Shown: positions 9,724 through 24,278 of the stretch, piece by piece
Numbering within the stretch: position 1 is the stretch's first letter
How the letters are laid out: the number at the start of each line of letters is the position of its first letter
Origin: Roseicyclus salinarum
Lineage (GTDB): Bacteria > Pseudomonadota > Alphaproteobacteria > Rhodobacterales > Rhodobacteraceae
DNA: 64,000 nucleotides
Direction of reading: 5' to 3'
Assembly (NCBI RefSeq): GCF_029624655.1
Contig: NZ_JARRSA010000009.1
Span: 92,012-156,011 of the forward strand
Position numbers and translations under genes: made by a program
The notes under the pieces: model-generated
Seen by the model: the letters and a program-made list of their open reading frames with translations, nothing else
Databases searched by the model: none
Told to the model about the DNA's origin: nothing

Positions 9724-9727
9724 GCTC

Positions 9728-11184: not shown

Positions 11185-11251
11185 GAGAGAGTCTCCTTTC
11201 TGAGGGTGCCCACTCGATCCGGGCTGTCGAATGGTTAAGCGCGGAGAGACT

Positions 11252-11291
11252 CTTTCGAAAGCGAATGTTCTTTGCCTTTTGCTGAAGCAAA
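11252..11291. promoter_or_regulatory. Divergent LysR/tct control region with two dyads
   Basis: The 122-base gap between tctC and the LysR gene holds two short inverted repeats: CTTTCGAAAG at 11252-11261 and TTTGC-TGAA-GCAAA at 11278-11291. LysR-type regulators bind T-N11-A dyads in such divergent regions, and the second dyad has that format. The region is also unusually AT-rich for this genome. The assignment is by position and pattern only. Confidence 0.45.
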
Positions 11292-11306
11292 TCTTAACAA
11301 AGACCG

Positions 11307-12203
11307 ATGGACATGCGTCAGCTTCAAACCATTGTCGCCGTCGCGGACACCGGCAGCTTTGCCGCCGCGGCCAATCTCGTGAACCTCACGCCGTCCGCGG
11401 TAAGCCAACAGATTCAGGCGCTTGAGAACCACCTCGGGGTCGAGTTGTTCGACCGCAGGAAACGACCCCGCCAGCTCAATGCGAAGGGCGAGGAACTGGT
11501 CCGCGCGGCGCGCGAGGTCGTGCGGACGATGGCCGAGACCCGCATGGTGATTTCCGGGGGCAGGACGGCCGGCGTGCTCAGATTCGGGGCAATTCGCACA
11601 GTTTCCATGCAGCTTGTGCCCCGCGCCTTCGCCGAAATGCGGTCGATCTACCCCGATCTCTCCTTCGAACTGACCGTCGGCGTGTCGCAGGCGCTGATGT
11701 CGGACGTCGCCGCGGGACGCCTCGACGCCGCCATGGTCGCCGAGCATGTCGGCGTTCCCACCGGTCTTTCGTGGAGCACCGTGCTGACCGAGCCGCTGGT
11801 CCTGATCGCCCCCCCACGGGAGGGGCGGCGCAGCGACATCTCGCTCCTGCGCGATCTGCCCTTCGTCCGCTACGCCACCGACGTGCCGCTCGCGCGGCAG
11901 ATCGACACCGAGCTGTCGCGCCTGTCGATCACGCCGAGACAGGTCGTCCTGACCAACACGATGCCCTCGGTCGTGGGCATGGTTCAGGCCGGCCTCGGGG
12001 TCGCCATCGTGCCCCAGATCGCCACCATCGATGCGGCGCCGGGCTCGCTGAACAGCAGGCCCTTCGGCAATGGCGCCATCGTCCGCCGCATCGGACTGGT
12101 GCAGCGGCAGGTCTCGTCGCGCTCGAAGGTGCTCGCGGGACTGCGCGAGGTGCTTGTCCGGCGCGCGATCGACATCGGGCTCGATCCCGGCGAGACACCC
12201 TGA
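11307..12203 (+). CDS. LysR-family transcriptional regulator
   Basis: A 298-residue regulator with the standard N-terminal winged helix (MRQLQTIVAVADTGSFAAAA and LTPSAVSQQIQALENHLGVE, then LFDRRKR) and a periplasmic-binding-type effector domain from about residue 90. Length is typical of LysR proteins. It is transcribed divergently from tctC, so the likely job is control of the tctCBA-ggt operon in response to the transported compound, plus autoregulation. The stop lies three bases from the end of the convergent phosphotransferase/kinase gene. Confidence 0.93.
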   Translation: MDMRQLQTIVAVADTGSFAAAANLVNLTPSAVSQQIQALENHLGVELFDRRKRPRQLNAKGEELVRAAREVVRTMAETRMVISGGRTAGVLRFGAIRTVSMQLVPRAFAEMRSIYPDLSFELTVGVSQALMSDVAAGRLDAAMVAEHVGVPTGLSWSTVLTEPLVLIAPPREGRRSDISLLRDLPFVRYATDVPLARQIDTELSRLSITPRQVVLTNTMPSVVGMVQAGLGVAIVPQIATIDAAPGSLNSRPFGNGAIVRRIGLVQRQVSSRSKVLAGLREVLVRRAIDIGLDPGETP

Positions 12204-12206
12204 GCG

Positions 12207-13736
12207 TCAGCCGGCATTCGCCCCGCGATCCGCGCCGAGACGCGCCGCCGCATCCGCGAAGACGTCCCCAGACGCACGCCCCGCATCGAGGCGGCACCAC
12301 GCCACCTGCCCCGCGCCCGCCGCGATCTGCCGCTCCAGGACGGCGACGTCCGCGTCCGAGGCATCGCCGCGGCGCGCGCGAAGGCGCGCCCGCAGCACGG
12401 CGTCGGGCGCTTCCAGCCAGAACCCCACGAATGGCCGCCCGGCCCGCTTCGCCACGTCTTCGGCCCGCGCGCGCATCGCCGGGTCCAGGAACGTCGCGTC
12501 GAGGATGACCGAATGGCCCGCCGCAAGCAGCGTGGCGGCGCGCCCGAGCATCGCGAGGTAGACGGCCTCGCGCCGCTCGCGGGCGTAGGCGGCGCTGTCG
12601 AGGCGCGTCCCGGCGGGCCGTCCGGCCTTGCGTTCCAGGTCCGAGCCGAGAAGCACCGCCCCCGGCAGCGGGCCCGCCAGGGGGGCGAGCGCGCGCGCAA
12701 GCACGCTCTTGCCGCTGCCCGACAGGCCCCCGACCGCGACAAGCCGCGCGGGCACGGGATCTAGCGCGGCGCAGGCGAGATCCAGGTAGTCCGCGACCTC
12801 GGGCGCCGACGTGCCGGGGCATCCGCGCGCGGCGTCCGTCTGCAAGAGCACCATCGCCCGGATCGCGGCGCGCACCGACAGGAACAGGGGCAGCGCGGCA
12901 AGGCCCCCGTCCTCGGTGCCGCGCGCCGCGCGAAGCCACGCATCGAGCACCCTGCAGGCCTGCCGACGCAGGCCGCGATGGCACAGGTCCATGACGAGGA
13001 ATGCGATGTCGTAGAGCACGTCGCAGGTGCCCAGCGTCTCGTCGAATTCGAGCGCGTCATAAAGAACCGGCCGCCCGTCGATCAGCACCAGGTTGCGCAG
13101 ATGCAGATCCCCATGGGCGCGGCGCAGGTGCCCGTCACGGGCGCGGGCGTCCAGAAGCGCGCCGTTGGCCCGCAGCCGCGCGGCGACGGCCCCCTGCCAT
13201 GCCGCAAGCCGCCCGGTCCCGGCGGCCCCCTCGAACCCGGCGAAAACGCGCCCAAGTTCCGCGAGGATGTCGGCCAGAAGCGCCCTGCCGCCGCGCAGGA
13301 CCGCCGGGGCCTTGGCATGATAGGCCGCGACGGCCTCGCCGATGGAGGTCGCGAGCCGGTCGTCGAGCTCTCCGCGGGCCACGACGCGCTCCAGCTCGTT
13401 CTCCGCGGGGAAGCGCCACATCCGCAGGACCCAGTCGACGACCGCCCCCGCGCCGCCCAGCTCCAGCCCCGCCTCGCCGCGCGTGACCGGCAGCATGTCG
13501 CGATAGATCTCGGGCGCGGCGGGGCGGTTGAGCTCCAGTTCGCGCGCCACGAGCTTCCTGCGCAGCGCGACCGTGCTCAGGTCCATGTAGTCGTATTTCA
13601 CCTCGCGCTTCAGCTTGAGCGCCGTGTCCCCGCACAGGAAAACGTAGGCGCCGTGGGTCTCGATGACCTCAACGGGCCCGCCGCCGGGAAAGGCCCGGCC
13701 GGAGGCAAGGAAGGCGACGGTTTTGGCTTGCGTCAT
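12207..13736 (-). CDS. Bifunctional phosphotransferase-like/P-loop kinase protein
   Basis: The 509-residue protein starts at ATG 13736 (MTQAKTVAFLASGRAFPGGG). The N-terminal part (about 1-320) resembles the aminoglycoside phosphotransferase fold, with LRRAHGDLHLRNLVLIDGRP near residue 210 and a metal-ligand-like LYDALEFDETLGTCDVLYDI. The C-terminal part (about 330-509) is a P-loop kinase with Walker A GLSGSGKS near residue 340 and an LLGSDLERK segment, as in gluconate/chloramphenicol-kinase-like ATPases. Such APH-AAA fusions are common in proteobacteria but have no settled substrate. A TTGA-N6-TCAT site is centred about 60 bases before the start, linking it to the Crp/Fnr-type regulon here. 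A second, kinase-less homologue lies immediately upstream. Confidence 0.82.
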   Translation of the reverse strand: MTQAKTVAFLASGRAFPGGGPVEVIETHGAYVFLCGDTALKLKREVKYDYMDLSTVALRRKLVARELELNRPAAPEIYRDMLPVTRGEAGLELGGAGAVVDWVLRMWRFPAENELERVVARGELDDRLATSIGEAVAAYHAKAPAVLRGGRALLADILAELGRVFAGFEGAAGTGRLAAWQGAVAARLRANGALLDARARDGHLRRAHGDLHLRNLVLIDGRPVLYDALEFDETLGTCDVLYDIAFLVMDLCHRGLRRQACRVLDAWLRAARGTEDGGLAALPLFLSVRAAIRAMVLLQTDAARGCPGTSAPEVADYLDLACAALDPVPARLVAVGGLSGSGKSVLARALAPLAGPLPGAVLLGSDLERKAGRPAGTRLDSAAYARERREAVYLAMLGRAATLLAAGHSVILDATFLDPAMRARAEDVAKRAGRPFVGFWLEAPDAVLRARLRARRGDASDADVAVLERQIAAGAGQVAWCRLDAGRASGDVFADAAARLGADRGANAG

Positions 13737-13789
13737 GTGCTGTTCCGGGGCTGTGGCCTCAGGGTCCCGCCACCGACCGGCCGGTGGCA

Positions 13790-13803
13790 ATGATCTCGGT
13801 CAA
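13790..13803 (-). promoter_or_regulatory. Crp/Fnr-type site before the phosphotransferase/kinase gene
   Basis: Read on the minus strand the bases are TTGACCGAGATCATTG (core TTGA-N6-TCAT). The site is centred about 60 bases before the ATG at 13736. It differs by only two core positions from the site before groEL at 20900. Confidence 0.6.
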
Positions 13804-13870
13804 TCCTGCCGCCGGGCGGGGACCCGGCGCCGGGTCGGCCCAACCGAAGCCGCACCCCTGCCAGCGCGCC

Positions 13871-14929
13871 TCAGCGCGCGCCAAGCTCCCCCTTGCGCAT
13901 CGCTTCCGGCTCCAGAAGCCGCGTCGCCATCACGACGTGGTCCCGCGTCGTCTTGCGCCACTTGAGGGGCGTCGGCACGACCGCGTCCCGGAAATGGTCG
14001 GCGGCGATGCGCGCGCGCGTCAGGCAAGACACCGCGCCGTAGGCCGTCAAGAGACGGGGCGAGGGCCGCGCGACCTGCTGCGACAGCGCGGCAAGCAGGC
14101 GCTCGCGGATCCACCCTGCCCCCAGAAGCGCACATTCCAGCCCGAGCGCGTTCACCTCGTGGAACGGGTTCATGACCCGGAGCCCGTGGTCGATCTCGAG
14201 GCGGTCGAACACGACGGGCGGATCGCCAAGGCAGACGTGCTCGGCCCGAAGATCGCCGTGCCCCTCCACGATCAGCCCGGTTTCGCCCCGCTCGAGGATC
14301 TCGTCACGGCAGAGCCGGATCGCGCGCTCGGCCGCATCGAGGACCCGCGCGGGCGCATCCATGCCGATGGCCGGCGCCATGTCGCGCAGGTGCCGCCGCG
14401 CGATCCGGATGTCACCCCGAAGCCGGTCGTGGAAGATGCGCGCGCCGTCGGCTTCGGGGGGACGTTCGCGGTAGAACCGCACGAGGAGGTCGCAGGCGCG
14501 GCCGATCTCCTCGCCGCTCGGCGGGGGCCCGCGCAGCAGGCGGCGATCAAGCATGTCCCCGGCCGGCAGGCGCACCGTCTCCACCAGCCAGTCGACCACG
14601 CGCCCCTGGCCGCCAACCGCGAGACCGCCACCGTCGCGCTGCACCAGGGGCGTCATGCCGCGGTAGACGTGGCCCGGCATCTCGCTGTTCACGCGCAACT
14701 CCGCACGGCAGAGCCGCTCGCGCGCCTGAAGCCTGCGCTGGTCGACATGGACGAGCCGCACGGGCTTGCGCAGCTTCCATGCCCGGTCACGGGTCAGGAA
14801 AACGAGCGAGGCGTGGGTTTCGACGCAGTCGGGGCGGGGCTCGCCCGGCCAGGCCGCGCCGCTTTCCAGGAACGCGCGCTTCTCGGCAAGCGTGGGCCGG
14901 CCGCCGCCGTCCCCGTCGCCCTCCGCCAC
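13871..14929 (-). CDS. Phosphotransferase-like protein without kinase domain
   Basis: A 352-residue protein related to the N-terminal part of its neighbour at 12207-13736: both share VETHASLVFL/IETHGAYVFL, a Lys-containing LKxxRxVKY-like strand (here LRKPVRLVHVD), GHVYRGMTPLV/EIYRDMLPVT and a catalytic-loop sequence (here EGHGDLRAEHV near residue 225, followed by VVFDRLEIDHGLR). It ends where the P-loop kinase domain of the neighbour would begin. The substrate is unknown. Its start lies ten bases after the DUF2267 stop, so it is probably the second gene of that operon, driven from the region around 15430. Confidence 0.75.
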   Translation of the reverse strand: MAEGDGDGGGRPTLAEKRAFLESGAAWPGEPRPDCVETHASLVFLTRDRAWKLRKPVRLVHVDQRRLQARERLCRAELRVNSEMPGHVYRGMTPLVQRDGGGLAVGGQGRVVDWLVETVRLPAGDMLDRRLLRGPPPSGEEIGRACDLLVRFYRERPPEADGARIFHDRLRGDIRIARRHLRDMAPAIGMDAPARVLDAAERAIRLCRDEILERGETGLIVEGHGDLRAEHVCLGDPPVVFDRLEIDHGLRVMNPFHEVNALGLECALLGAGWIRERLLAALSQQVARPSPRLLTAYGAVSCLTRARIAADHFRDAVVPTPLKWRKTTRDHVVMATRLLEPEAMRKGELGAR

Positions 14930-14939
14930 GGCCAGGGGC

Positions 14940-15362
14940 CTATTCCCAGAGCTCCCGGATCGGTTTGCGCATGGCGTTCTTCACCTGCTCGAACTCGCCC
15001 CACGAGACGTGCCGGCGCAGCAGGTCGAACACCGCCGACACCGCGCGTTCGGGATCCTCCAGCGGCTCCTTGCGAAAGCGCGCCTCGACGCGGGCGAGGA
15101 AATCGGCCTTGTTGCGGGGCCTTGCAGGCGTGCGCGAGGGATCCCAGCCATCGAAGAACACGCCCCGCACCAGCAGCGGAAGCTGCGCCGAAAGGTCGGC
15201 AGCCTCATCGACGGACAGGAAGTCGCGCACCGCGTGCAGGGTCTCGCACAGCAGCAGGTAGGCGCGCGCCTTTTCCCAGCCGAGGTCCGCGCACAGCTCG
15301 TTGAGCCATTCGGCAAAGACCTGCGGAGCGTGGTCGATCGCGGAAATGCCAGTCGTGGCCAT
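14940..15362 (-). CDS. DUF2267 family protein
   Basis: A 140-residue soluble helical protein beginning MATTGISAIDHAPQVFAEWL. The pattern ARAYLLLCETLHAVRDFLSV, DEAADLSAQLPLLVRGVFFD and GWDPSRTPARPRNKADFLAR is typical of DUF2267, a family repeatedly found with stress chaperones, universal stress proteins and CBS proteins, with unknown function. The start at 15362 was chosen because it yields family length and follows a GGTGATCC purine stretch. It is divergent from the PRPP synthetase gene, and one palindromic Crp/Fnr-type site lies in the shared upstream region. Confidence 0.85.
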   Translation of the reverse strand: MATTGISAIDHAPQVFAEWLNELCADLGWEKARAYLLLCETLHAVRDFLSVDEAADLSAQLPLLVRGVFFDGWDPSRTPARPRNKADFLARVEARFRKEPLEDPERAVSAVFDLLRRHVSWGEFEQVKNAMRKPIRELWE

Positions 15363-15426
15363 TGGATCACCTTCGTTGCGGACGAAAGACGCGCGCCAAC
15401 CTTCCCGCAGAAGGGCGGCCTGCGCA

Positions 15427-15440
15427 TTGACGGCAATCAA
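15427..15440. promoter_or_regulatory. Crp/Fnr-type site between DUF2267 and PRPP synthetase genes
   Basis: TTGACGGCAATCAA followed by TG. The dyad is centred about 41 bases before the PRPP synthetase ATG and about 71 bases before the divergent DUF2267 start, so it could serve both directions. Confidence 0.6.
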
Positions 15441-15474
15441 TGCCGCGCCCGCGCGCATCGGGAACACCCGTGGC

Positions 15475-16470
15475 ATGCTGGTCTTCGCGCTCAAGGGCTC
15501 TGCCGCGCTCGGCGACCGCGTCGCGGCCTGCGGCGGTCTGCAGCTCGCGCCGCACGAGGAACGCGAGTTCGACGGCGGCGAGCACAAGGCCCGGCCCCTC
15601 GTGGATGTGGCCGGGCAGGATGTCGTCGTGCTGCAGTCCCTGCACGGCTGCGACCGCGCCTCCGCGAACGACAAGCTCCTGCGGCTTCTGTTCTTCGTGG
15701 GGGCCTGCCGCGATCACGGCGCGCGGCGCGTCACCGCCGTCGCGCCCTACCTCGCCTATTCGCGCAAGGACCGGCGCACGAAGCCCCAGGACCCGGTGAC
15801 CGCGCGCTACGTCGCGCAGCTTTTCGAGGCCGTGGGCGCTTCGGCGGTGGTGACGCTCGAGGTCCACAACCTCGCGGCCTTCGAGAACGCCTTTCGATGC
15901 CCGACGCTGCACCTGTCCACGGACGGGCTTTTCGCCGATCACATCGCCGCCGGGCTCGCGGGGCCCGGTGCGAAGCTGCCGCCGGCCGTGGTCTCGCCCG
16001 ATCTTGGCGGCGTCAAGCGCGCCCAGCTTCTGCGCGAGGCGCTGGAGGCGCGGACGGGCGTCGCGGTACCCTTCGGCTTCATGGAGAAGCGGCGCAGCGC
16101 GGGCGTCGTGTCGGGAACGCTTTTCGCGGGCGAGGTGGCGGGCTGCGCCGTCTACATCGTGGACGACATGATCTGCGGCGGCGGCACGATCCTGCGGGCG
16201 GCGAAAGCCGCGCGCGCACATGGCGCGGCCGAGGTCCACGCTCTCGCCGCGCACGGGCTGATGACGGATGCGGCGCTCGAGGTCCTGTCGCGGAGCGCGC
16301 TCCTCGACAGCATCGCCATCAGCGACGGCGTGGAGCCGTGCCCCGCCTTCGGCGCGGCGCTTGGCGCGCGGCTGCGCATCGTGACCTGCGCGCCGCTGCT
16401 GGCAGAGGCCCTCGCGCGCCTGCACCCGCCCCCCGGCACCGGCCCCGCAGCGCGCGGGGGGTCCGCTTGA
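15475..16470 (+). CDS. Ribose-phosphate pyrophosphokinase family protein
   Basis: A 331-residue cytoplasmic enzyme expected to make PRPP from ribose 5-phosphate and ATP. The ATG at 15475 gives MLVFALKGSAALGDRVAACG; upstream residues in the open frame are not protein-like. Family motifs: the flexible-loop region YLAYSRKDRRTKPQDPVTAR, VTLEVHNLAAFENAF, VVSPDLGGVKRAQLLREALE, and the PRPP loop VYIVDDMICGGGTILRA. It is more divergent than the housekeeping Prs, which should be encoded elsewhere. Such second copies appear in anaerobic or stress clusters beside CBS and chaperone genes. The last codons overlap the Crp/Fnr-type site of the next gene. Confidence 0.88.
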   Translation: MLVFALKGSAALGDRVAACGGLQLAPHEEREFDGGEHKARPLVDVAGQDVVVLQSLHGCDRASANDKLLRLLFFVGACRDHGARRVTAVAPYLAYSRKDRRTKPQDPVTARYVAQLFEAVGASAVVTLEVHNLAAFENAFRCPTLHLSTDGLFADHIAAGLAGPGAKLPPAVVSPDLGGVKRAQLLREALEARTGVAVPFGFMEKRRSAGVVSGTLFAGEVAGCAVYIVDDMICGGGTILRAAKAARAHGAAEVHALAAHGLMTDAALEVLSRSALLDSIAISDGVEPCPAFGAALGARLRIVTCAPLLAEALARLHPPPGTGPAARGGSA

Positions 16471-16480
16471 CGGCCGTCAA
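16467..16480 (+). promoter_or_regulatory. Perfect palindromic Crp/Fnr-type site before the CBS gene
   Basis: TTGACGGCCGTCAA is a perfect 14-base palindrome, followed by TG as in the other sites. It overlaps the final codons of the PRPP synthetase gene and is centred about 70 bases before the CBS-protein ATG at 16544. Confidence 0.7.
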
Positions 16481-16543
16481 TGAACCCTCGGCCGGGATGA
16501 CGCAGACTTCCGACCATCACCCCTGAAGCGAGGGAACCCCGAC

Positions 16544-16963
16544 ATGGACATCGCATCTGCAATGCACCGCAAGGCCGACTGGGCCGAGGCAGACACGCCC
16601 GTCAGCGAGATCGCGAAGATCATGGAGAAGGACGATATCGGCGCGATCCCGATCGGAAAGGACGACCGGCTGATCGGAATGGTCACGGATCGCGACATCG
16701 CACTGCGCGTCGTGGCCGCGGGGCGCGACCCCGAAAAGACCACCGCGCAAGAGATCATGACCGAGGGGATCGTCTACTGCCGCACGGCCGAGACGGTCGA
16801 GGACGCGATCCACCTCATGGACCAGCGCAAGATCCGGCGGCTTCCGGTCATCGACGACAACAAGCGGCTCGTGGGGATGCTCAGCCTCGGCGACATATCG
16901 CACGCCGTCAGCCGGGAACTGTCCGGCGAGCTTCTGCACGCGGTTGCCGACCACCATGGCTGA
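16544..16963 (+). CDS. Two-CBS-domain protein
   Basis: A 139-residue soluble protein made of two CBS modules: DTPVSEIAKIMEKDDIGAIP through GMVTDRDIALRVVA, and AETVEDAIHLMDQRKIRRLP through LVGMLSLGDISHAVS. CBS pairs bind adenine nucleotides and act as energy sensors. No other domain is attached. GAAGCGAGGG precedes the start. The upstream palindromic site suggests activation by a Crp/Fnr regulator, and the gene heads a run with the lipoprotein and hibernation factor genes. Confidence 0.92.
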   Translation: MDIASAMHRKADWAEADTPVSEIAKIMEKDDIGAIPIGKDDRLIGMVTDRDIALRVVAAGRDPEKTTAQEIMTEGIVYCRTAETVEDAIHLMDQRKIRRLPVIDDNKRLVGMLSLGDISHAVSRELSGELLHAVADHHG

Positions 16964-16996
16964 GGCCGCGCGCGAACCGCCAAGGTAGGAAAGACC

Positions 16997-17272
16997 ATGA
17001 CCAGACACGCTGTCGCGACGGTCCTGACGGCGCTGACGATCCTGTCGGGCTGCGAGGATCTCACACCCCAGCAGCGCACCGTGGTCGGCATCACGGCGGG
17101 CGCCGCCGTCGGCCTGATCACCGCCGAGGCGCTCGAGGCCGACGACGACTGGCGCCTGATCGCGGCCCTCGCGGGGGCGGCCGCAGGCACGATCGTCGCT
17201 CAGAACTCGGCCGACGACAGGTGCGCCTACTCGCGGGGCGACGCGACCTTCTACATCATGCCCTGCCCTTGA
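16997..17272 (+). CDS. Small lipoprotein with glycine-zipper segment
   Basis: A 91-residue protein with a lipoprotein signal (VATVLTALTILSGC; lipidated Cys19) followed by a Gly/Ala-rich hydrophobic hairpin (TAGAAVGLITAEAL and AALAGAAAGTIVAQNSADD), the glycine-zipper pattern of small envelope lipoproteins. The C-terminal part has two cysteines (DRCAYSRGDATFYIMPCP) that could form a disulfide. AGGAAAG precedes the ATG. It lies 33 bases after the CBS gene and 22 before the hibernation factor gene, so it is probably in that operon. The specific function is unknown. Confidence 0.75.
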   Translation: MTRHAVATVLTALTILSGCEDLTPQQRTVVGITAGAAVGLITAEALEADDDWRLIAALAGAAAGTIVAQNSADDRCAYSRGDATFYIMPCP

Positions 17273-17294
17273 TCGCCGCCACGCGGAGCCCGTC

Positions 17295-17846
17295 ATGCAG
17301 ACCGAACCGATCATCTCCTACCACAACATCGACCACTCGCCGGCCGTCGACGAGCTGGTGCAGCGGCGCATCGCGCTGCTGGAACGCCGCGACGAGCGCA
17401 TCACCGGCTGCGAGGTCACGATGGAGGCGCCGCAGAAGCGCAAGCGCCATGGCCGGGTCTTCAAGGTCCGGCTGAACGTCCACCTGCCGGGACCGGATGT
17501 CTCGGTCGCGCGCGAGGTGGCGCAGGGAAGCGCGCAGGAGGACCTGATCCTCGCCGTGAACCGTGCCTTCACAGCGGCAGAGAAGGCGTTGAAAAAACGC
17601 AAGAAAGTGATGGGCGGAGTCGAGGTGAAGCATCACGCGCCGATCCTGCACGGCGAGATCGCCGAACTGGAGCCCGAGCTTGGCTACGGCTGGGTCACGG
17701 CTGACGACGGGCGGCGCGTCTACTTCCAGCGCGACAGCCTGACCTCGGACCAGTGGGAGCTTCTCGAAAAGGGCACCCGCATCCGGTTCCGGGAGATGGA
17801 GGGCGAAAAGGGCCCCTACGCCACCGCCGTCACCATCGCCGGGTGA
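17295..17846 (+). CDS. Ribosome hibernation factor HPF/RaiA fused to a cold-shock domain
   Basis: A 183-residue protein. Residues 1-105 match the HPF/YfiA (S30AE) fold (ALLERRDERITGCEVTMEAP, RLNVHLPGPDVSVAREVAQG, DLILAVNRAFTAAEKALKKR). Residues about 122-183 resemble a cold-shock/OB domain (ELGYGWVTADDGRRVYFQRD, then LLEKGTRIRFREMEGEKGPY and ATAVTIAG) in place of the dimerisation domain of long HPF. HPF proteins bind the 30S A/P sites and silence ribosomes in starvation; the OB domain may add RNA binding. It is last in the CBS-lipoprotein-HPF run and convergent with the Crp/Fnr gene, eight bases away. Confidence 0.88.
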   Translation: MQTEPIISYHNIDHSPAVDELVQRRIALLERRDERITGCEVTMEAPQKRKRHGRVFKVRLNVHLPGPDVSVAREVAQGSAQEDLILAVNRAFTAAEKALKKRKKVMGGVEVKHHAPILHGEIAELEPELGYGWVTADDGRRVYFQRDSLTSDQWELLEKGTRIRFREMEGEKGPYATAVTIAG

Positions 17847-17854
17847 CCCCGCGC

Positions 17855-18628
17855 TCAGCCGGCACGCAGGCCGCGCGACATTCCCCCCAGCGCGTCGGGA
17901 ACGCACTCGCACTCCTCCTCGCCAGCCCGCTCCGCAAGCGCCTGCCGGTCGCGCACGAGGATGCGGCCGGGATCGAGGATCTCGATGTCGCCAAGGTCCT
18001 GCAACCGGTGCAACGCGCGCGAGATCGACTCGGGCCGCGTGCCCAGAAGGTGCGACAGGTCGGTGCGGCTGATCGGTATCCTGACCTCCACCCCTTCGCC
18101 CGCAGGCGCAAGCACGTCGCCGACCGCCGAGAACCGCGCGCACATCAGGTTGAGAAATCCCGCGACCCGGTTCGCGATCTTCTGGTTGGACAGGATCACC
18201 ATCCACTCCCGCGCGCGGTCGAGCTCGTCGAGCACGTTCAACAGCACGGCCCGGTCGAGGTCGGGCGAGCGCATCAGGAGGGACTCGAACGGCGCGCGGG
18301 CGAACGAGCAGTACTCGGCATCGACCGCCGCCTCGACCGAGTAGCCGGTCGGCCCGCCGAAAACCCGGCCGAACACGTCTCCCTCCACGAGAAGCCCGAC
18401 GATATGCTGCCGCCCGTCGGCAAGCGTCTTCTGCATCCTCAGAACGCCCGAAACGACGAGGCCCACGACGTCCGCCGCCTCGTTCTCCTGCAGGACGGTC
18501 TGACCCGCCCGGAAGCGCCGCAGGAGGCACATCGACATCAGCGCGTCGCGCGTGTCGGGCCGCAGCTCAGAAAAGATGCCAGAACGTGTCACGCGCTCGC
18601 GCGTGGCGGTGCAGCCTTGCCCCATCAT
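17855..18628 (-). CDS. Crp/Fnr-family regulator without Fe-S cysteines
   Basis: A 257-residue regulator. The cyclic-nucleotide-binding-like beta roll spans about residues 20-135 (FRAGQTVLQENEAADVVGLV, VEGDVFGRVFGGPTGYSVEA), followed by the dimer helix and a winged helix (PISRTDLSHLLGTRPESISR then ALHRLQDLGDIEIL). The recognition helix carries E-S-I-S-R, the Glu/Ser/Arg set that reads TTGA half sites in Fnr/FixK. The N-terminus has one Cys and lacks the Fnr cluster, so it is closer to FixK/Dnr types. It is divergent from the Host_attach gene, with a Crp/Fnr-type site between them. Confidence 0.92.
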   Translation of the reverse strand: MMGQGCTATRERVTRSGIFSELRPDTRDALMSMCLLRRFRAGQTVLQENEAADVVGLVVSGVLRMQKTLADGRQHIVGLLVEGDVFGRVFGGPTGYSVEAAVDAEYCSFARAPFESLLMRSPDLDRAVLLNVLDELDRAREWMVILSNQKIANRVAGFLNLMCARFSAVGDVLAPAGEGVEVRIPISRTDLSHLLGTRPESISRALHRLQDLGDIEILDPGRILVRDRQALAERAGEEECECVPDALGGMSRGLRAG

Positions 18629-18744
18629 GCCCTCTCAGCCTCGCCTGCGTAGCTGGACCGGGCGGACGCCCGATCCCGCCTGCCAACTGTTGGCGTGAAA
18701 AATGGTTCCAGCCGCAATGACATCATCGCCACGCACGCGGCGCG

Positions 18745-18758
18745 TTAACCGCCATCAA
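18745..18758 (+). promoter_or_regulatory. Crp/Fnr-type site before the Host_attach gene
   Basis: TTAACCGCCATCAA followed by TG. The site is centred about 65 bases before the ATG at 18817 and about 123 bases before the divergent Crp/Fnr gene start. One half site deviates (TTAA). Confidence 0.55.
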
Positions 18759-18816
18759 TGAGGCGAAGCCTGGAATCGGCTCAAATCATCGCAGGGACGA
18801 CGACAATGGAGGCGAC

Positions 18817-19281
18817 ATGGCACTCCCGAAGACCTGGGCCCTCGTGACCAACGGCGTTCGCGCGCGCATCCTGCGCGGGCTCGACGGGAGTGGCGGCGGC
18901 GAGGAACCGATCGAGCTTCACAGCAAGGCCGCGTCGACCCATCTGGGCGAGATCATGGCGGATCAGGCCGGGCGCAGTTTCGCCTCCGACGCCAGCGGAA
19001 GGCGCTCGGCGATGGAGCCGGGGTCCGACCCTGTGCAGCGCACCATGCAGGATTTCGCGCGCGAGATCCTCGACAGCCTCGAGGCGCACCGCCACGAGGG
19101 GCGGCTGGGCCGCCTCGCGATATTCGCCGCGCCGAGGATGCTGGGCATCCTGCGCCACGAAATGCCCGCGTCGCTGGGCGAGACCGTTGTGCTCGAACGC
19201 GATCTCAACATCGTCAACCTGCCCGACGCCGAGCTGAGGGATGCGGTCACCGAGGCGCTCGGCCAGGGGTCTCTGAAATGA
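18817..19281 (+). CDS. Host_attach family protein
   Basis: A 154-residue soluble protein of the family named for 'protein required for attachment to host cells' (Pfam Host_attach). Typical features are the start MALPKTWALVTNGVRARILR, the mid-region SDPVQRTMQDFAREILDSLE, and RLAIFAAPRMLGILRHEMPA followed by ERDLNIVNLPDAEL. Despite the name, distribution and neighbours (Hsp20, stress genes) suggest a role in stress or anoxia, perhaps nucleotide or RNA related. Its stop overlaps the next start (ATGA at 19278), so it is coupled to the FnrL-like regulator gene. Confidence 0.85.
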   Translation: MALPKTWALVTNGVRARILRGLDGSGGGEEPIELHSKAASTHLGEIMADQAGRSFASDASGRRSAMEPGSDPVQRTMQDFAREILDSLEAHRHEGRLGRLAIFAAPRMLGILRHEMPASLGETVVLERDLNIVNLPDAELRDAVTEALGQGSLK

Positions 19282-20150
19282 CGTTCGTCCCGGCCGCCGA
19301 CACGCTTCGGGGCGCGCTGCGGCCGGACGGCGGCAGCATCGGGGGCCGGTCCTGCGAGGGATGCGCGCTCCGCGGCGCGGAGCTGTGCCGCGCGATGCGC
19401 GACGACGGCTCCACCGGCGCAGGCAGGCCCGCGGTGCGTACCTTTCCGCGCGGCAGGCAGATCCTCGAACAGGGCGGGCAACCCGGGTTTCTGGGCGTGA
19501 TCCGCAAGGGCTACGTCCGCCGCTCGACCATCAGGCTCAGCGGCAAGCGCATCCTGCTCGGCCTCGCCGTGCCGGGCGACCTCGTGGGCGCATTGGCGGG
19601 AGAGGCCTCCGTCTGCGGCCTGGAGGCGGCCACGGACGTCGAGATCTGCCTCTACGACAGCGCGGGCGTCAGCCGGCGGATGCGGCACGACCCGCGGATC
19701 CGGCAGCTGGTGCTGCGCGAGGTCGACCACCTTCACCAGAGCCTCCTCGAGGCGCTCTGGCGCTACGGCACACTGACCAGCCGCGAGCGGATCATCGCGT
19801 TCCTCGTCTCGGCGGCCTCGATCATGCCGGTGGAGCCGTTGCCCGACGGGGCCCTCGTCCTGACGATGGAGATCGACCGGCGCGACTGGGCGGACCTGAC
19901 CAACACGGCGGTCGAGACGATCAGCCGGACCCTGCGCTATCTCGAGGAGAAGGACCTCCTGACGAGCCTTTCACCCTACCGGTTCCGGATCCGCGACCTC
20001 GACCGGCTGGCGCTTCTTGCGGGCGTGGAGCCGCCGGGGCGCGAGGCGGAGGGGCGCGTGGCTTCCGGGCCGCCGGCATCGCCCGCCGCGACGGCGGACC
20101 CCCGGCGGCCGATGACGGCGATCAATGCTCCGACCGGGGCGCGAGGATAG
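19278..20150 (+). CDS. FnrL-like Crp/Fnr regulator with predicted oxygen-sensing Fe-S cluster
   Basis: A 290-residue regulator. The N-terminus has C26-x2-C29-x7-C37, the spacing of alphaproteobacterial FnrL, and C124 in TDVEICLYD sits where the fourth Fnr ligand lies; C113 is extra. These four would hold an oxygen-labile [4Fe-4S] cluster. The winged helix contains WADLTNTAVETISRTLRYLE, whose E-T-I-S-R reads TTGA-type half sites. A 35-residue Pro/Ala-rich tail follows the domain. It is translationally coupled to the Host_attach gene. The end of its coding sequence carries the Crp/Fnr-type site for hsp20. A housekeeping FnrL probably exists elsewhere. Confidence 0.9.
   Translation: MTFVPAADTLRGALRPDGGSIGGRSCEGCALRGAELCRAMRDDGSTGAGRPAVRTFPRGRQILEQGGQPGFLGVIRKGYVRRSTIRLSGKRILLGLAVPGDLVGALAGEASVCGLEAATDVEICLYDSAGVSRRMRHDPRIRQLVLREVDHLHQSLLEALWRYGTLTSRERIIAFLVSAASIMPVEPLPDGALVLTMEIDRRDWADLTNTAVETISRTLRYLEEKDLLTSLSPYRFRIRDLDRLALLAGVEPPGREAEGRVASGPPASPAATADPRRPMTAINAPTGARG
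20112..20125 (+). promoter_or_regulatory. Crp/Fnr-type site before hsp20
   Basis: ATGACGGCGATCAA followed by TG, lying inside the last codons of the FnrL-like gene and centred about 98 bases before the hsp20 start. The first half site deviates (ATGA). Confidence 0.5.
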
Positions 20151-20216
20151 ACTGCCCCGCGTCACGATAGGCCCGGCCGCGCTCCTGCGCGGTCTTGTTC
20201 GAAGGGAGACGCAAGG

Positions 20217-20741
20217 ATGACCAGCAAGACATCGGAGATCGAGGTTCAGAAGGAAGCGGCGCCGGCAGCTAGCGAAGGCTGGCCGCCCATTCTTTCGCTC
20301 AGGAACGAGATCGACCGGCTGTTCGACGATTTCAGCGCGGGTTTCTGGCGGCGGCCGCTGTCGCGCAGGATGCAGTCGCTGCTGCCCGCCGAGGGCGCAT
20401 GGGCGCTGCAGCCCGCGACCGAGCTTGTCAAATGCGACGGCGAATACCGCATCACGGCCGAGCTGCCCGGAATGGCCGCCGAGGACATCGACATCAAGCT
20501 GAGCGACGGGACCATCACGATCCATGGCGAGAAGTCGGAGGAAAGGAAGGAAGAGAAGGAGGACTACCTCCTGAGCGAGCGCCGCTACGGCGAGTTCCAT
20601 CGCACGCTGTCCCTTCCCCCCGGCATCGACGCAGGCGCCGTGTCGGCCAGCTTTGCCAACGGCGTCCTGACAGTGACCCTGCCCAAGAGCGCCGAGGCGA
20701 AGGAGAAGGAACGCAAGGTCGAGGTCCAGTCCGCGGCCTGA
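20217..20741 (+). CDS. Hsp20 family small heat-shock protein
   Basis: A 174-residue alpha-crystallin-domain chaperone. The N-terminal arm ends in LRNEIDRLFDDFSAGFWRRP, a common start for this subfamily. The core runs from about residue 65 (PATELVKCDGEYRITAELPG), with the strand-loop ISDGTITIHGEKSEE-like stretch, and ends with LPPGIDAGAVSASFANGVLT, VTLPKS. Small Hsps hold unfolding proteins for refolding by ATP-dependent chaperones, and the GroEL-like gene follows. GAAGGGAGACGCAAGG precedes the ATG. Confidence 0.95.
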   Translation: MTSKTSEIEVQKEAAPAASEGWPPILSLRNEIDRLFDDFSAGFWRRPLSRRMQSLLPAEGAWALQPATELVKCDGEYRITAELPGMAAEDIDIKLSDGTITIHGEKSEERKEEKEDYLLSERRYGEFHRTLSLPPGIDAGAVSASFANGVLTVTLPKSAEAKEKERKVEVQSAA

Positions 20742-20899
20742 ACGCGGACGGCCGAACGAGGCTCCCGGCGCCTCCGGCTCCGGCGGAGGTGCAACTGGCC
20801 CCGGCAGCACGCTCCGGCCTGTCCCCGGTCCGAAGTCTGCCGGGGCTCTTTGCGGCGCGGCCCCGCCCGCGCGGGCCCTGCCCCGCCGCAGCCCGCCCG

Positions 20900-20913
20900 T
20901 TGACCGCGGTCAT
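20900..20913 (+). promoter_or_regulatory. Crp/Fnr-type site before the GroEL-like gene
   Basis: TTGACCGCGGTCAT, centred about 63 bases before the ATG at 20970 in a 228-base intergenic region. The inner CCGCGG is itself palindromic. Confidence 0.6.
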
Positions 20914-20969
20914 CGACAGCGCAGCGCGGCGGCGCATCCTGTCGGGGCCGCGACCATCGGGAGACCGAC

Positions 20970-22595
20970 ATGGCCTACAAGAAACTCCTTTTCCGGTCAG
21001 AGGCGCGCGAGGCGCTGCTCAAGGGGACCCGCGCGCTTGCCGATGCGGTGCGCATCACGCTGGGTCCGCGCTCGAAGTCGGTCTTCATCCAGAAAAGCTA
21101 CGGCGCGCCGGTGGTCTGCGACGACGGCGTCACGATCGCCAAGGAATTCCGCCTGAAGGAGTCCGAGCAGGACATGGGCGCGCAGCTTCTCCGGCAGGCG
21201 GCGGAACGCACGGGCGACGCCGTCGGCGACGGCACCACGACCTCCACCATCCTCGCCCACGCGCTGTTCTCCGAGGGGGTGCGCAACGTGGCCGCGGGCG
21301 CCTCGGGGGTGGAGTTGCGCCGCGGCTTCGAGGACGGCCTCGCCGCCGCGGTCGAAAGCCTGCGCGCCCTGTCGCGGCCGGTTCAGTCGCGAAAGGAGAA
21401 GGGACAGGTCGCCGCGCTGTCGGCCCACGGCAACGAGGCGATCGGCGAAATGGTCGCCGAGGCGATGGAGAAGGTGGGCGACGAAGGGGCCATCATGGTC
21501 GAGGATTCCCGCACCACCGAAACCGTCCTCGAGGTCGTGGAGGGCCTGCAGTTCGATCGCGGCTACATCTCTCCCTACTTCGTCACCGACGCCGAGACGC
21601 TGACCGCGCGGCTCGACGAGCCGCTCATCCTGCTGCACGAGCGCAAGCTGAGCGGCCTGCGCCCCCTCGTGCCGCTTCTGGAGGCAGTGATGCAGGCGGG
21701 GCGGTCCCTGCTGATCGTGGCCGAGGATCTGGACGACGAGGCGCTCGCGACGCTCGTGGTGAACAGGCCTCGCGGCACGCTCAAGGTCGTCGCCGTCAAG
21801 GCGCCGGGCTTCGGGGACAGGCGGCGCGCCATGCTCGAGGACATCGCCGTGCTCACCGGCTGCCGCCCCGTTTCGCCCGACCTCGGGATCGACATCGAGA
21901 AGCTGGGGATCGACGACCTCGGCCGCGCGGCCTCCGTCAGGGCCGACCGCGAGACGACGACGATCGTGGGCGGCGCGGGCGACCCGGAGCGGATCGAGGC
22001 GCGGATCGCGCAGATCCGCCTTCAGCTCGACGAGAGCACCTCGGACTACGACCGCGAGAAGCTCCGCGAGCGCCTCGCCAAGCTGTCGGGCGGCGTCGCC
22101 GTGATCCGTGCGGGCGCGGCCACGGAAGCCGAGCTGAAGTCCCGCAAGGAAGCGCTGGACGACGCGATCAACGCGACCAAGGCCGCCGTCGCCGAGGGCG
22201 TGGTGCCGGGCGGGGGCCTTGCGCTGGTGCGGGCCATCGGCGCCGTTGAAGCCGCCGCGGAGGCTCGCGAAGGCGACCGGCGCACCGGCGTCTCGTGCCT
22301 TGCGCGCGCGCTCGCCGAGCCTGCCCGCCAGATCGCCGAGAATTCCGCGATGGATGGCGGCGTGGTGCTGGCGGAGATGAAGAAGGGCACGGGCGCGCGC
22401 GGCTTCGACGCGGCGCGCAACGTCTACTGCGACCTGCTGGAGGCCGGGATCATCGACCCGACAAAGGTGGTGCGCATCGCGCTGGAGAACGCCGTGTCCG
22501 TGGCCGGCACGCTCCTCCTGACGGAGGCCACGATGGCCGAGATCCCCGAGGACGAGGACAGGCCCGCACCGGCGCCGCTCGACACCTATGCCTGA
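20970..22595 (+). CDS. Divergent GroEL-type chaperonin without adjacent groES
   Basis: A 541-residue chaperonin subunit. The ATPase signatures remain: RITLGPRSKSVFIQKSYGAP, VVCDDGVTIAKEF, and GDAVGDGTTTSTILAHALFS with the catalytic Asp. The apical region keeps ERGYISPYF-like DRGYISPYFVTD. Differences from housekeeping GroEL include the N-terminus MAYKKLLFRSEAREALLKGT, many substitutions in the equatorial domain, and a C-terminus of acidic/proline residues (DEDRPAPAPLDTYA) instead of the Gly-Gly-Met tail. No groES flanks it. It probably works under low-oxygen or stress conditions, given the upstream site and Hsp20 neighbour. Its stop overlaps the next start by eight bases. Confidence 0.93.
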   Translation: MAYKKLLFRSEAREALLKGTRALADAVRITLGPRSKSVFIQKSYGAPVVCDDGVTIAKEFRLKESEQDMGAQLLRQAAERTGDAVGDGTTTSTILAHALFSEGVRNVAAGASGVELRRGFEDGLAAAVESLRALSRPVQSRKEKGQVAALSAHGNEAIGEMVAEAMEKVGDEGAIMVEDSRTTETVLEVVEGLQFDRGYISPYFVTDAETLTARLDEPLILLHERKLSGLRPLVPLLEAVMQAGRSLLIVAEDLDDEALATLVVNRPRGTLKVVAVKAPGFGDRRRAMLEDIAVLTGCRPVSPDLGIDIEKLGIDDLGRAASVRADRETTTIVGGAGDPERIEARIAQIRLQLDESTSDYDREKLRERLAKLSGGVAVIRAGAATEAELKSRKEALDDAINATKAAVAEGVVPGGGLALVRAIGAVEAAAEAREGDRRTGVSCLARALAEPARQIAENSAMDGGVVLAEMKKGTGARGFDAARNVYCDLLEAGIIDPTKVVRIALENAVSVAGTLLLTEATMAEIPEDEDRPAPAPLDTYA

Positions 22596-23526
22596 GCGCG
22601 GCACCGCCGGGGCCCCGCCCCCCGTGCAGGAGAACCTCCAGATCGCCGCGCGCCTGCGGGAATACGCCGGACTTCTGGAGGCCCAGGGCGAGGACGGCTT
22701 TCGCGTGGCGGCGTTCCGCACCGCGGCCCACGGCATCGAGACCTCGCCCGAGCCGCTGCGCCGCCTCTTCGAGAGCGGCGGCACCGGCGCGCTGATCGCG
22801 CTTCGAGGGATCGGGCGGGGCATCGCGGCGGCGATCGCCGAATTGCTGACGACGGGGCAATGGCGGCAGCTCGAGCGCCTGAAGGGCAGCCTGTCGCCGG
22901 AGGATCTCTTTCGCACCATACCGGGCATCGGCCCGGAACTCGCGCGACGCCTCGTCGATACGCTCGACGTCGAGACGCTGGAGGACCTCGAGACGGCGCT
23001 GCGCCTGGACAGGACGCAGGTGCCGGGGATCGGCCCGCGCCGTCGCGAGGCGATCCTCGCCGCGCTGGAGCAGCGGCTTGCGCGGATGCGGCGCGGGGCG
23101 GCGCCCTGTGGCAAGGGCGTGCCGCCCGTGTCGCTCCTGCTCGACGCCGACGCGCTCTACCGCGCGCGGGCGGAGGCCGGGGATCTCAGGCGCATCGCGC
23201 CGCGGCGGTTCAACCCCACGGGCGAGGCGTGGCTGCCGATCATGCACGCGCGCCGCGGCGACTGGCACCTGACGGTCCTGTTCTCGAACACCGCGCGAGC
23301 GCACGAGCTGGACCGGACGGGGGACTGGGTCGTGATCTACTTCCACGACACCGACGGCCCGGAGGAACGCTGCACCGTCGTGACCGAACGGCGCGGCGTC
23401 CTTGCCGGCAAGCGCGTCGTGCGCGGCCGCGAGGACGAGTGCCTGAGGCACTACGCGGCCAGTCCCGGCGGGGACGCGCCCGCCGATGCCGGCGCGCCCT
23501 CCGGCGCGGGCGGGCCCAGGCACTGA
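22588..23526 (+). CDS. PolX N-terminal-like helix-hairpin-helix protein without polymerase domain
   Basis: A 312-residue protein. Residues about 12-75 resemble the 8-kDa lyase domain of family X DNA polymerases (NLQIAARLREYAGLLEAQGE, then FRVAAFRTAAHGIE), and residues about 75-165 contain helix-hairpin-helix motifs (RGIGRGIAAAIAEL, IPGIGPELARRLVDTLDV, VPGIGPRRREAILAAL). The nucleotidyltransferase and PHP domains of PolX are absent. The C-terminal half ([40 protein letters not shown]) is a separate domain of unknown function that I do not recognise by name. It is coupled to the GroEL-like gene by an eight-base overlap. DNA binding is probable; catalysis is not evident. Confidence 0.75.
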   Translation: MPERGTAGAPPPVQENLQIAARLREYAGLLEAQGEDGFRVAAFRTAAHGIETSPEPLRRLFESGGTGALIALRGIGRGIAAAIAELLTTGQWRQLERLKGSLSPEDLFRTIPGIGPELARRLVDTLDVETLEDLETALRLDRTQVPGIGPRRREAILAALEQRLARMRRGAAPCGKGVPPVSLLLDADALYRARAEAGDLRRIAPRRFNPTGEAWLPIMHARRGDWHLTVLFSNTARAHELDRTGDWVVIYFHDTDGPEERCTVVTERRGVLAGKRVVRGREDECLRHYAASPGGDAPADAGAPSGAGGPRH

Positions 23527-23571
23527 ACCCGCCATTGAACCCTTTCACTGAACCCGGTCACTGAACCGCGA
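23521..23571. repeat. Four imperfect 13-bp repeats spanning two convergent stop codons
   Basis: CACTGAACC-type units begin at 23521, 23533 (CATTGAACC), 23546 and 23559. The first unit supplies the stop of the helix-hairpin-helix gene, and the third and fourth frame the stop of the BON gene on the other strand. No hairpin is evident; replication slippage is a likely origin. Confidence 0.6.
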
Positions 23572-24205
23572 GGTCGTCCACCACCTTCGTCACGCCCGGC
23601 GCGGCCCATGCCGCGCGCTCCGCGCTTCTGCGCTCGCCGAGATAGCGGACGTTTCCCTTCAGCGTGACGATGCCGTCCTGCACGGCGACGCGGATACCCG
23701 AGGCGTCGAGTTCCGCATCGCGCATGAGCGCCTTGCGGATCCGGTCGGCGACGTCCTCGGCCGAGACGGCGGGCCTGACCTTCAGATCGTTGTCGATGCC
23801 GGTCACGCCCGTCAGCTTGGCGATGGCGCGTTCCGCCGCATCCGCCTGGTAGCGCCACTCGACGTCGCCCTCCAGGCTCACCCGCCCCTTGGAGACGGTG
23901 ACATGGATCCGCTCGTCCGGGATCGACGTGTGCCAGCGCAGCGTGTTGGCGATGCGCTTCGCGATCTCGTCGTCCGCCGTGATGTGGGCGCCGATGGGGC
24001 GCACCTCGATCTCGTCCGCGATGGCGCGCACGCCGACCACGTTCTCCACGATGTCCATCGCCGTGAGCTTGTCGCTGTAGCTGCGGACATGGCCCGTCAG
24101 GGTCACCACCCCCTGATCGACGGCCACGCCGATATCGGCCGCATCGATGCTCGGCTCGAAGTCGAGCTCGTCGATGATGTCCAGCCGCAGTTGCTTGTCG
24201 GTCAT
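23558..24205 (-). CDS. Triple BON-domain protein
   Basis: A 215-residue protein made of three BON repeats, each with the pattern VxDGxVTLxGxVxxxxxxxxAE: VAVDQGVVTLTGHVRSYSDK, VTVSKGRVSLEGDVEWRYQA and VAVQDGIVTLKGNVRYLGER. BON domains bind phospholipids or other hydrophobic ligands, and OsmY is the periplasmic model. No signal peptide is present with the ATG at 24205, chosen because GGAGGAAGAG lies directly before it; a start at 24217 would add only four residues. Cytoplasmic three-BON proteins of this kind recur in stress clusters. A Crp/Fnr-type site lies about 66 bases before the start. Confidence 0.88.
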   Translation of the reverse strand: MTDKQLRLDIIDELDFEPSIDAADIGVAVDQGVVTLTGHVRSYSDKLTAMDIVENVVGVRAIADEIEVRPIGAHITADDEIAKRIANTLRWHTSIPDERIHVTVSKGRVSLEGDVEWRYQADAAERAIAKLTGVTGIDNDLKVRPAVSAEDVADRIRKALMRDAELDASGIRVAVQDGIVTLKGNVRYLGERRSAERAAWAAPGVTKVVDDLAVQ

Positions 24206-24264
24206 CTCTTCCTCCATCCGGGGTATCGGAGGTGAGATCGTAGGCCTGCCGCGCGCGCGCGGCA

Positions 24265-24278
24265 TTGACCGCCCGCAA
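24265..24278 (-). promoter_or_regulatory. Crp/Fnr-type site before the BON gene
   Basis: Read on the minus strand the bases are TTGCGGGCGGTCAATG; one half site deviates (TTGC). It is centred about 66 bases before the BON start codon, the same distance as at the Host_attach and groEL genes. Confidence 0.5.

Follow-up and report, generated by a model that had tools for sequence, protein, structure and literature searches.

The closest described relatives of the system considered here, a set of seven Crp/Fnr-type operator sites in a 64-kb stretch of the Roseicyclus salinarum genome, are found in Bradyrhizobium diazoefficiens and Rhodobacter sphaeroides (the papers cited by PMC number were consulted in part, and what is said of them applies to those parts). 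In B. diazoefficiens, the bll4634–blr4655 region carries predicted boxes 47–150 bases upstream of its first genes and is expressed at a lower level in a fixK2 deletion strain at 0.5% oxygen, whilst its CBS gene blr4646 rises at low oxygen (PMC9104804, PMC6515984). The groEL5, hspC2, usp, host attachment, dnaJ and ppsA genes of the region carry FixK2 boxes and fall in the deletion strain (PMC9104804). On the basis of phylogenetic profiles, FixK has been predicted to control Hsp20, CBS and putative kinase genes across the alphaproteobacteria (PMC2908626, Table 1). In R. sphaeroides, the cluster-free regulator CrpK shares many sites with FnrL, and the bases of the spacer or outside the core were suspected of discriminating between the two (PMC4263372). 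How co-resident Crp/Fnr proteins with identical TTGA-N6-TCAA half-sites separate their targets is an open question. The mycobacterial DosR dormancy regulon comprises a possibly comparable set of hypoxia-induced genes (Hsp20, CBS, universal stress and APH-kinase-like), but DosR is a two-component regulator with an unrelated operator.

The stretch of DNA analysed (the window, 64,000 nucleotides) is the end of contig C69 (NZ_JARRSA010000009.1; 156,011 bases) in a genome of 3.95 Mb; its G+C content is 70%. At 12.2–24.3 kb it holds an island of kinase, phosphoribosyl pyrophosphate (PRPP), CBS, S30AE–cold-shock domain (S30AE-CSD), regulator, chaperone and BON genes, including divergently transcribed genes for two Crp/Fnr regulators that we term Reg1 and Reg2. 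The seven operator sites, each of which is present where a first-pass annotation of the sequence had placed it, are real and above chance:

13790..13803, minus strand: operator 1 (TTGACCGAGATCATTG), upstream of the APH/AAA_33 kinase gene; promoter site also in L047, L111 and L117
15427..15440, plus strand: operator 2 (TTGACGGCAATCAATG), between the divergent DUF2267 and PRPP synthetase genes; exact core, with a site in the same place in L047 and L111
16467..16480, plus strand: operator 3 (TTGACGGCCGTCAATG), a perfect palindrome upstream of the CBS-pair gene; exact core, with a CBS-promoter site also in L111, L112 and L119
18745..18758, plus strand: operator 4 (TTAACCGCCATCAATG), between the divergent Reg1 and Host_attach-Reg2 genes; intergene site in L046, L047, L048, L111, L112, L114 and L115
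20112..20125, plus strand: operator 5 (ATGACGGCGATCAATG), upstream of Hsp20 and within the 3'-terminal part of the Reg2 frame; kept in L046, L047, L048 and L111
20900..20913, plus strand: operator 6 (TTGACCGCGGTCATCG), upstream of the third GroEL gene
24265..24278, minus strand: operator 7 (TTGCGGGCGGTCAATG), upstream of the three-BON-domain gene

The palindromic nature of the site at 16467 was confirmed. The pattern TTGA-N6-TCAA, earlier said to fit all seven, is exact at 15427 and 16467 (two occurrences in the window, against a mean of 0.10 in shuffled sequence), whereas the other five cores carry one mismatch each (in plus-strand letters, ATGATCTCGGTCAA at 13790, TTAACCGCCATCAA at 18745, ATGACGGCGATCAA at 20112, TTGACCGCGGTCAT at 20900 and TTGACCGCCCGCAA at 24265). 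Read in one direction, all seven are variants of TTGAC-S-GC-NN-TCAATG and five end in TCAATG. With a 16-bp matrix built from the seven window sites, which themselves score 18.9–25.6 bits, exactly seven places in the 64 kb reach 15 bits and all are in the cluster, in agreement with the first-pass annotation, which had noticed no similar sites at other promoters in the window. When each site was left out in turn, six of the seven were outranked solely by positions at the other sites; the seventh, 24265, was outranked by the other sites plus one position, 35239. The distances from site centre to start codon, put by the first-pass annotation at about 41–98 bases, measure 41.5–98.5 bases (APH-kinase 60.5, PRPP synthetase 41.5, DUF2267 71.5, CBS 70.5, Host_attach 65.5, Hsp20 98.5, GroEL 63.5, BON 66.5).

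Further evidence comes from related loci. Searches with Reg2 identified three named relatives, all Rhodobacteraceae: Rhodobacteraceae HLUCCA09 (L046), a Roseivivax metagenome-assembled genome (L047) and Rhodovulum sp. 12E13 (L048). The fourth Reg2 match, from Rhodoblastus (L049), has no island and its locus contains no matrix match. Of the nine family genomes with Reg2 (see below), six other than the host carry the genes for Reg1, Host_attach and Reg2 together within 20 kb (L111, L112, L114, L115, L117 and L119). In these nine related loci the window-only matrix finds 41 matches of at least 15 bits, against 1.6 expected under a first-order Markov model. A seventh of these genomes (L121), outside that count, has a diverged regulator pair with Hsp20 and Host_attach and three matrix matches, one at hsp20, one in the interval separating the regulators and one ahead of Host_attach. 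Sites recur in the Reg1/Host_attach intergene and upstream of Hsp20, CBS, PRPP/DUF2267 and APH kinase genes; in all, relatives have a site at five of the seven promoters. On a plasmid of Rhodobacter sp. CZR27, the divergent pair, Hsp20 and the host attachment gene are kept, and the sole two matrix matches in 24.6 kb lie at hsp20 and between the regulators. Of 116 Reg2 homologues, 36 have [ML][TM]A[VI]N, the in-frame reading of operator 5, in their C-terminal portion. In L112 (G148), eight matrix matches are found at 7286–16820, four of them with a TTGTC left half; possibly the operator and its regulator have drifted jointly in this locus.

The distribution of the island is patchy. None of four congeners (G149–G152) has a Reg2 match better than 1e-14, and the island can therefore be considered accessory. 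A clean insertion in a congener was not demonstrable, with matches to the flanking LysR and 2-oxoglutarate-oxygenase genes on separate contigs in G152 and the oxygenase alone in G150. Reg2 is absent from 72,556 plasmid records at E 1e-15, yet the diverged pair is on a Rhodobacter plasmid.

The sites also stand in a consistent relationship to putative promoters. We scored TATAAT-like hexamers, using assumed weights, at each of 129 offsets from the core. For nine window promoters the best offset is that at which the hexamer starts 23 bases past the core (2.90; mean 0.88, standard deviation 0.45), and the same offset is best of 129 in 38 relatives' promoters (1.76; mean 1.20, standard deviation 0.22). 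Among 20 one-directional promoters (five from the window), offset 23 ranks second in the direction of the gene and 58th in the opposite direction. A -10 hexamer 23–28 bases past the core would place the site centre at -41.5, the geometry of class II activation; this spacing is an average signal and not one seen promoter by promoter. The following -10 elements are predicted:

20148..20153, plus strand: TAGACT, hsp20 promoter, 23–28 bases past operator 5
24237..24242, minus strand: TACGAT, BON promoter, 23–28 bases past operator 7
18781..18786, plus strand: TCAAAT, Host_attach-Reg2 promoter
18717..18722, minus strand: TGTCAT, Reg1 promoter

Taken together, the sites at orthologous promoters in other genera, the average class II-type spacing, the built-in regulator pair and the parallel with the FixK2 region lend good support to the proposal that neighbouring stress genes here share a set of Crp/Fnr-type operators.

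The genes of the island, with starts taken from a simple gene caller, are:

12207..13736, minus strand: APH phosphotransferase plus AAA_33 kinase protein, 509 aa from the ATG at 13736 (Pfam, gene call)
13871..14929, minus strand: phosphotransferase-like protein, no Pfam match; similar (29%) to the relative of the APH-kinase protein in L047
14940..15362, minus strand: DUF2267 protein (Pfam)
15475..16470, plus strand: ribose-phosphate diphosphokinase (PRPP synthetase; Pfam; TIGR01251, 200 bits against a cut-off of 113)
16544..16963, plus strand: two-CBS-domain protein (Pfam)
16997..17272, plus strand: small glycine-zipper protein (Pfam, 24.8 bits against a cut-off of 24.2)
17295..17846, plus strand: S30AE (HPF-like) domain fused to a cold-shock domain (Pfam)
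17855..18628, minus strand: Reg1, Crp/Fnr regulator with no N-terminal cysteine cluster and an E-S-I-S-R helix
18817..19281, plus strand: Host_attach / baeRF family protein (Pfam)
19278..20150, plus strand: Reg2, FNR-like Crp/Fnr regulator with C26-x2-C29-x7-C37 plus C124 and an E-T-I-S-R helix
20217..20741, plus strand: Hsp20 small heat shock protein (Pfam)
20970..22595, plus strand: the genome's third GroEL, with 54% and 53% identity to its two paralogues
22588..23526, plus strand: helix-hairpin-helix protein (Pfam)
23558..24205, minus strand: three-BON-domain protein, ATG at 24205 (Pfam)

The gene caller placed no groES-sized gene in the interval from hsp20 to the third GroEL gene or directly 3' of the latter. 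The S30AE-CSD fusion scores 28.9 bits against the NCBIfam HPF cut-off of 40.9 whilst exceeding that of Pfam, and is thus an unusual ribosome-hibernation candidate; its predicted role, best termed hibernation-like, rests on this sub-cut-off match.

Reg2 is found in nine of 149 family genomes (E 1e-20) and Reg1 (at least 140 bits) in 11, and all nine Reg2 genomes fall among the 11 with Reg1 (p = 7e-13). Reg2 matches the cNMP-binding-like and HTH_Crp domains of the Crp/Fnr fold above the Pfam cut-offs, and its structural model (predicted local distance difference test score, pLDDT, 85) matches FNR, FixK2 and CRP in Foldseek at E below 1e-12. Its Cys26, Cys29, Cys37 and Cys124 are kept in 109, 111, 111 and 114 of 116 homologues, and their spacing is that of this genome's FnrL. 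Cys124 aligns with the FnrL cysteine in MAFFT and with an FNR cysteine in the best phmmer alignment, a second alignment being shifted by three residues. Reg1 is of the cluster-free, FixK/CrpK-like type: CxxCx5-8C occurs in none of the best 120 of its 329 homologues, one of which is labelled CrpK. That both regulators carry E-x-x-S-R recognition helices, as had been noted earlier, was verified. Glutamate and arginine are invariant in the 116 Reg2 homologues, with serine in 97 (cysteine in 19), and all three residues are present in 120 of 120 for Reg1 (again the best 120 of 329). E-x-x-S-R is a signature of TTGA reading. Low oxygen as the predicted signal is a reasonable inference from the conserved Reg2 cysteines; for nitrosative stress, also mentioned at first pass, no pointer turned up and no search was made for it. 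Which regulator binds, and in response to which signal, is what we infer from sequence.

How might the island operate? The reading we lean towards is that Reg1 and Reg2 act via the seven sites as class II activator operators, probably switching the whole island on when oxygen falls. Nowhere else in the window is a score of 15 bits reached, and relatives have sites at the orthologous promoters. The average -10 position would put the site centres at -41.5, where occupancy would recruit RNA polymerase in the manner of class II FNR promoters. Loss of oxygen would allow Reg2 to keep a predicted [4Fe-4S] cluster, dimerise and bind. Reg1 and Reg2 co-occur with a site between them, and both may autoregulate via operator 4. 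The cluster-free Reg1 could amplify or prolong the output where Reg2 would be inactive, a role like that suggested for R. sphaeroides CrpK beside FnrL (PMC4263372). It is likely that the regulators together turn on the chaperone, predicted ribosome-parking and nucleotide genes at low oxygen. The output would be protection in stalled growth, with Hsp20 and GroEL holding proteins, S30AE-CSD parking ribosomes, PRPP synthetase keeping up nucleotide supply and the BON and CBS proteins guarding the envelope and energy sensing; the central GC of the spacer and the TG flank may bias the sites toward the island pair over FnrL. More tentatively, the island could be a portable low-oxygen dormancy module with an insulated FNR channel, in which a divergent pair ([4Fe-4S] sensor and cluster-free partner) reads CATTGAC-NGCN-GTCAATG, a sequence that FnrL would read poorly, and in which sensor, amplifier, operators and output travel together with their wiring kept between genera. 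In their central GC and TG flank, the island sites offer a difference that is concrete and open to testing, with presumed sensor and outputs side by side in a compact locus. The locus, which recurs in several Rhodobacteraceae genera, also brings PRPP synthesis and a factor resembling those of ribosome hibernation next to a low-oxygen chaperone response that is already known.

The strongest competitor, which we nevertheless regard as rather unlikely, is that the sites are ordinary FnrL operators, with FnrL controlling the island and Reg1 and Reg2 acting elsewhere or fine-tuning. The genome encodes an FnrL (453.5 bits to the FnrL equivalog NF045989, cut-off 300) with sites of its own at cco, hemN and fnrL; on the same model Reg2 scores 61.5 and Reg1 145.3, and Reg1 scores 84.1 on the FixK equivalog NF050806 (cut-off 300), all below cut-off. 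FnrL directly activates Usp (universal stress protein) genes in Dinoroseobacter (PMC5398030) and uspA in R. sphaeroides (PMC2908626, Table 2), FNR, FixK and DNR boxes are very similar, and one R. sphaeroides FnrL chromatin immunoprecipitation (ChIP) peak holds TTGACagctGTCAA, an island-type core (PMC2908626). The centre of the sites argues the other way. Six of the seven window sites have a central GC, as do 16 of 27 relatives' sites (whose selection relied on a core with at most one mismatch close to an orthologous promoter and took no account of the centre), compared with one of 28 FnrL ChIP-chip sequences (PMC2908626) and none of 26 FixK2 boxes (PMC9104804). With the island matrix, the genome's four cco/hemN/fnrL sites reach only 11.7–14.2 bits, below the range of the island sites. 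At 20 bits or more there are 14 matches in 164 kb of island loci and none in either 68 kb of presumed FnrL loci (the surroundings of 19 Crp/Fnr homologues at 32–36% identity, where genuine FNR sites are expected) or 40 kb of two Reg1-only loci. The exact motif TTGAYNGCNRTCAATG shows a modest association with Reg2, occurring in five of nine genomes with Reg2 as against 22 of the 140 without it (p = 0.010); the matches of G070, G077 and G125 lie inside the island and those of G049 inside it or at most 8 kb away. The equivalent test with TTGAYNGCNRTCAA, which lacks the TG flank, is uninformative (100 of 149 genomes match), and counts of this motif in G117, G048 and G120, all without Reg1 at 140 bits, are higher than in any genome with Reg1. 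On the strength of the central GC, the FnrL-site scores and the exact-motif association, the island pair is favoured over FnrL, which may share in the control.

Repression of the island in air by Reg1 or Reg2, with induction by release rather than activation, appears improbable. There is precedent for repression by Crp/Fnr proteins, in that five of 27 FnrL peaks lack sigma-70 and some FnrL targets are decreased (PMC2908626), and the PRPP synthetase site lies just 41.5 bases from its ATG. The average -10 position, however, fits class II activation, and the side facing away from the gene lacks it.

That the palindromes are plasmid-partition (RepB) sites, not operators, can be given very little credence. 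The NGCN centre of the island sites resembles the repABC palindrome, and TTGACAGCTGTCAA, which by the consensus of such sites looks like a plasmid partition site rather than an FNR box, stands in closely spaced copies in G091 (C84) and G051 (C1), as partition sites do. Partition sites of repABC type have GTT...AAC ends, whereas five of the seven island sites end in TCAATG; the island sites also stand singly at promoters, with the average -10 at a fixed distance. No RepB scores above cut-off in the genome, where two sub-threshold matches lie on C11 and C15, and this candidate was rejected on the RepB result and the TCAATG ends. TTGACAGCTGTCAA is also found once under an FnrL ChIP peak on an R. 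sphaeroides plasmid (PMC2908626). Chance matches in G+C-rich sequence, or codon constraint, which the location of the 20112 site inside a reading frame might suggest, are made very unlikely by the shuffles, by the excess of matches in the relatives with intergenic sites kept at orthologous promoters, and by the reversed-pattern control described below. The idea that TTGAC is the -35 box of a dedicated sigma factor, prompted by the resemblance of the left half to a -35 hexamer, is equally remote and was rejected, as the right half TCAATG is also kept, the element is palindromic and 31 bases separate TTGAC from the hexamer where 16–18 are usual.

Some observations count against activation of the island by Reg1 and Reg2. 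The genome's FnrL could bind the island sites, and neither Reg1 nor Reg2 reaches any NCBIfam equivalog cut-off. At 15 bits, presumed FnrL loci give 10 matches in 68 kb and Reg1-only loci two in 40 kb, such that the matrix fails to split island from presumed-FnrL sites at this threshold and does so at higher ones. The TG flank is the less specific feature, as some presumed FnrL loci carry it with a central TG. The exact TTGAYNGCNRTCAATG motif is not exclusive, being held by the 22 genomes without Reg2 and missing from the Reg2 genomes G012, G062, G091 and G148; G127 and G144, with no Reg2 homologue at E 1e-20, have three exact matches each, and in these another regulator may read the same spacer. 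N-terminal cysteines are missing from Reg2 in L117, L119 and Rhodobacter CZR27, and oxygen sensing is therefore not universal. The GroEL and BON sites have no footprint because the relatives' loci contain no GroEL or BON orthologue. The -10 signal, scored with assumed weights, was seen by eye before scoring, and several single promoters have no good -10 hexamer. Finally, for two of the 11 similar places outside the cluster, C45:8114 and C66:108159, no gene start was called a short way downstream.

Those outside places emerged when the genome-wide scan proposed at first pass was carried out with patterns. Exact TTGA-N6-TCAA occurs 39 times in the genome, against seven for the reversed pattern. 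Sixteen distinct places lie within one mismatch of TTGACSGNNNTCAATG; five are in the 10.5-kb cluster, and the remaining 11 are outside it. Two Usp genes have an island-type site upstream, at 61.5 bases on C33 and at 69.5 bases on C68. Others lie 56.5 bases from a cytochrome c gene (C44) and 184.5 bases from a Crp/Fnr regulator gene (C55), and one on C67 lies between DksA-like and BLH-type phosphatase genes, about 125 bases away (L077 3127–3444 and 3695–4126). Looser placements are found 199.5 bases upstream of a DnaJ gene (C66) and 277.5 upstream of a Lon gene (C7). This list of genes is provisional because the starts come from the simple gene caller. On C68, twin island-type operators with cores 20 bases apart stand between a DUF3775 gene and the Usp gene (L078 11642–11679; G000 C68:22141–22178). 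Given same-type sites near Usp, DnaJ and Lon genes, and an FnrL with its own cco/hemN sites, the description of the regulon as self-contained does not hold.

How, then, does the island compare with known systems? As in a FixK2-type low-oxygen stress cluster, TTGA-N6-TCAA-like boxes stand at chaperone, CBS and host-attachment promoters; GroEL, Hsp20 and host attachment genes carry boxes in the FixK2 region too, which likewise has a CBS gene. Differences are that no built-in regulator pair is seen in the parts of the FixK2 literature consulted, that none of the 26 boxes given there has the central GC and that PRPP synthetase, S30AE-CSD and DUF2267 genes are not among the targets listed in them. 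The predicted FixK core regulon differs in being a cross-species prediction whose set includes FixL and FixJ (PMC2908626). The likeness to FnrL and CrpK of R. sphaeroides lies in one regulator with FNR cysteines and one without—Reg1, lacking a cluster, resembling CrpK—and in overlapping TTGA-N6-TCAA sites, whereas the targets there are photosynthesis, oxidase and iron genes (PMC4263372, PMC2908626), and the island pair is divergent, lies inside its own target island and has a different spacer in its sites. In the portions of the literature searched we found no description of this island, nor of the pair, the spacer variant, the PRPP synthetase or the S30AE-CSD protein in such a setting. With FixK2 and CrpK as precedents, the kind of system is therefore already known; what is new is that the divergent pair is built in, that the spacer differs and that genes for PRPP synthetase and a hibernation-like protein are included.

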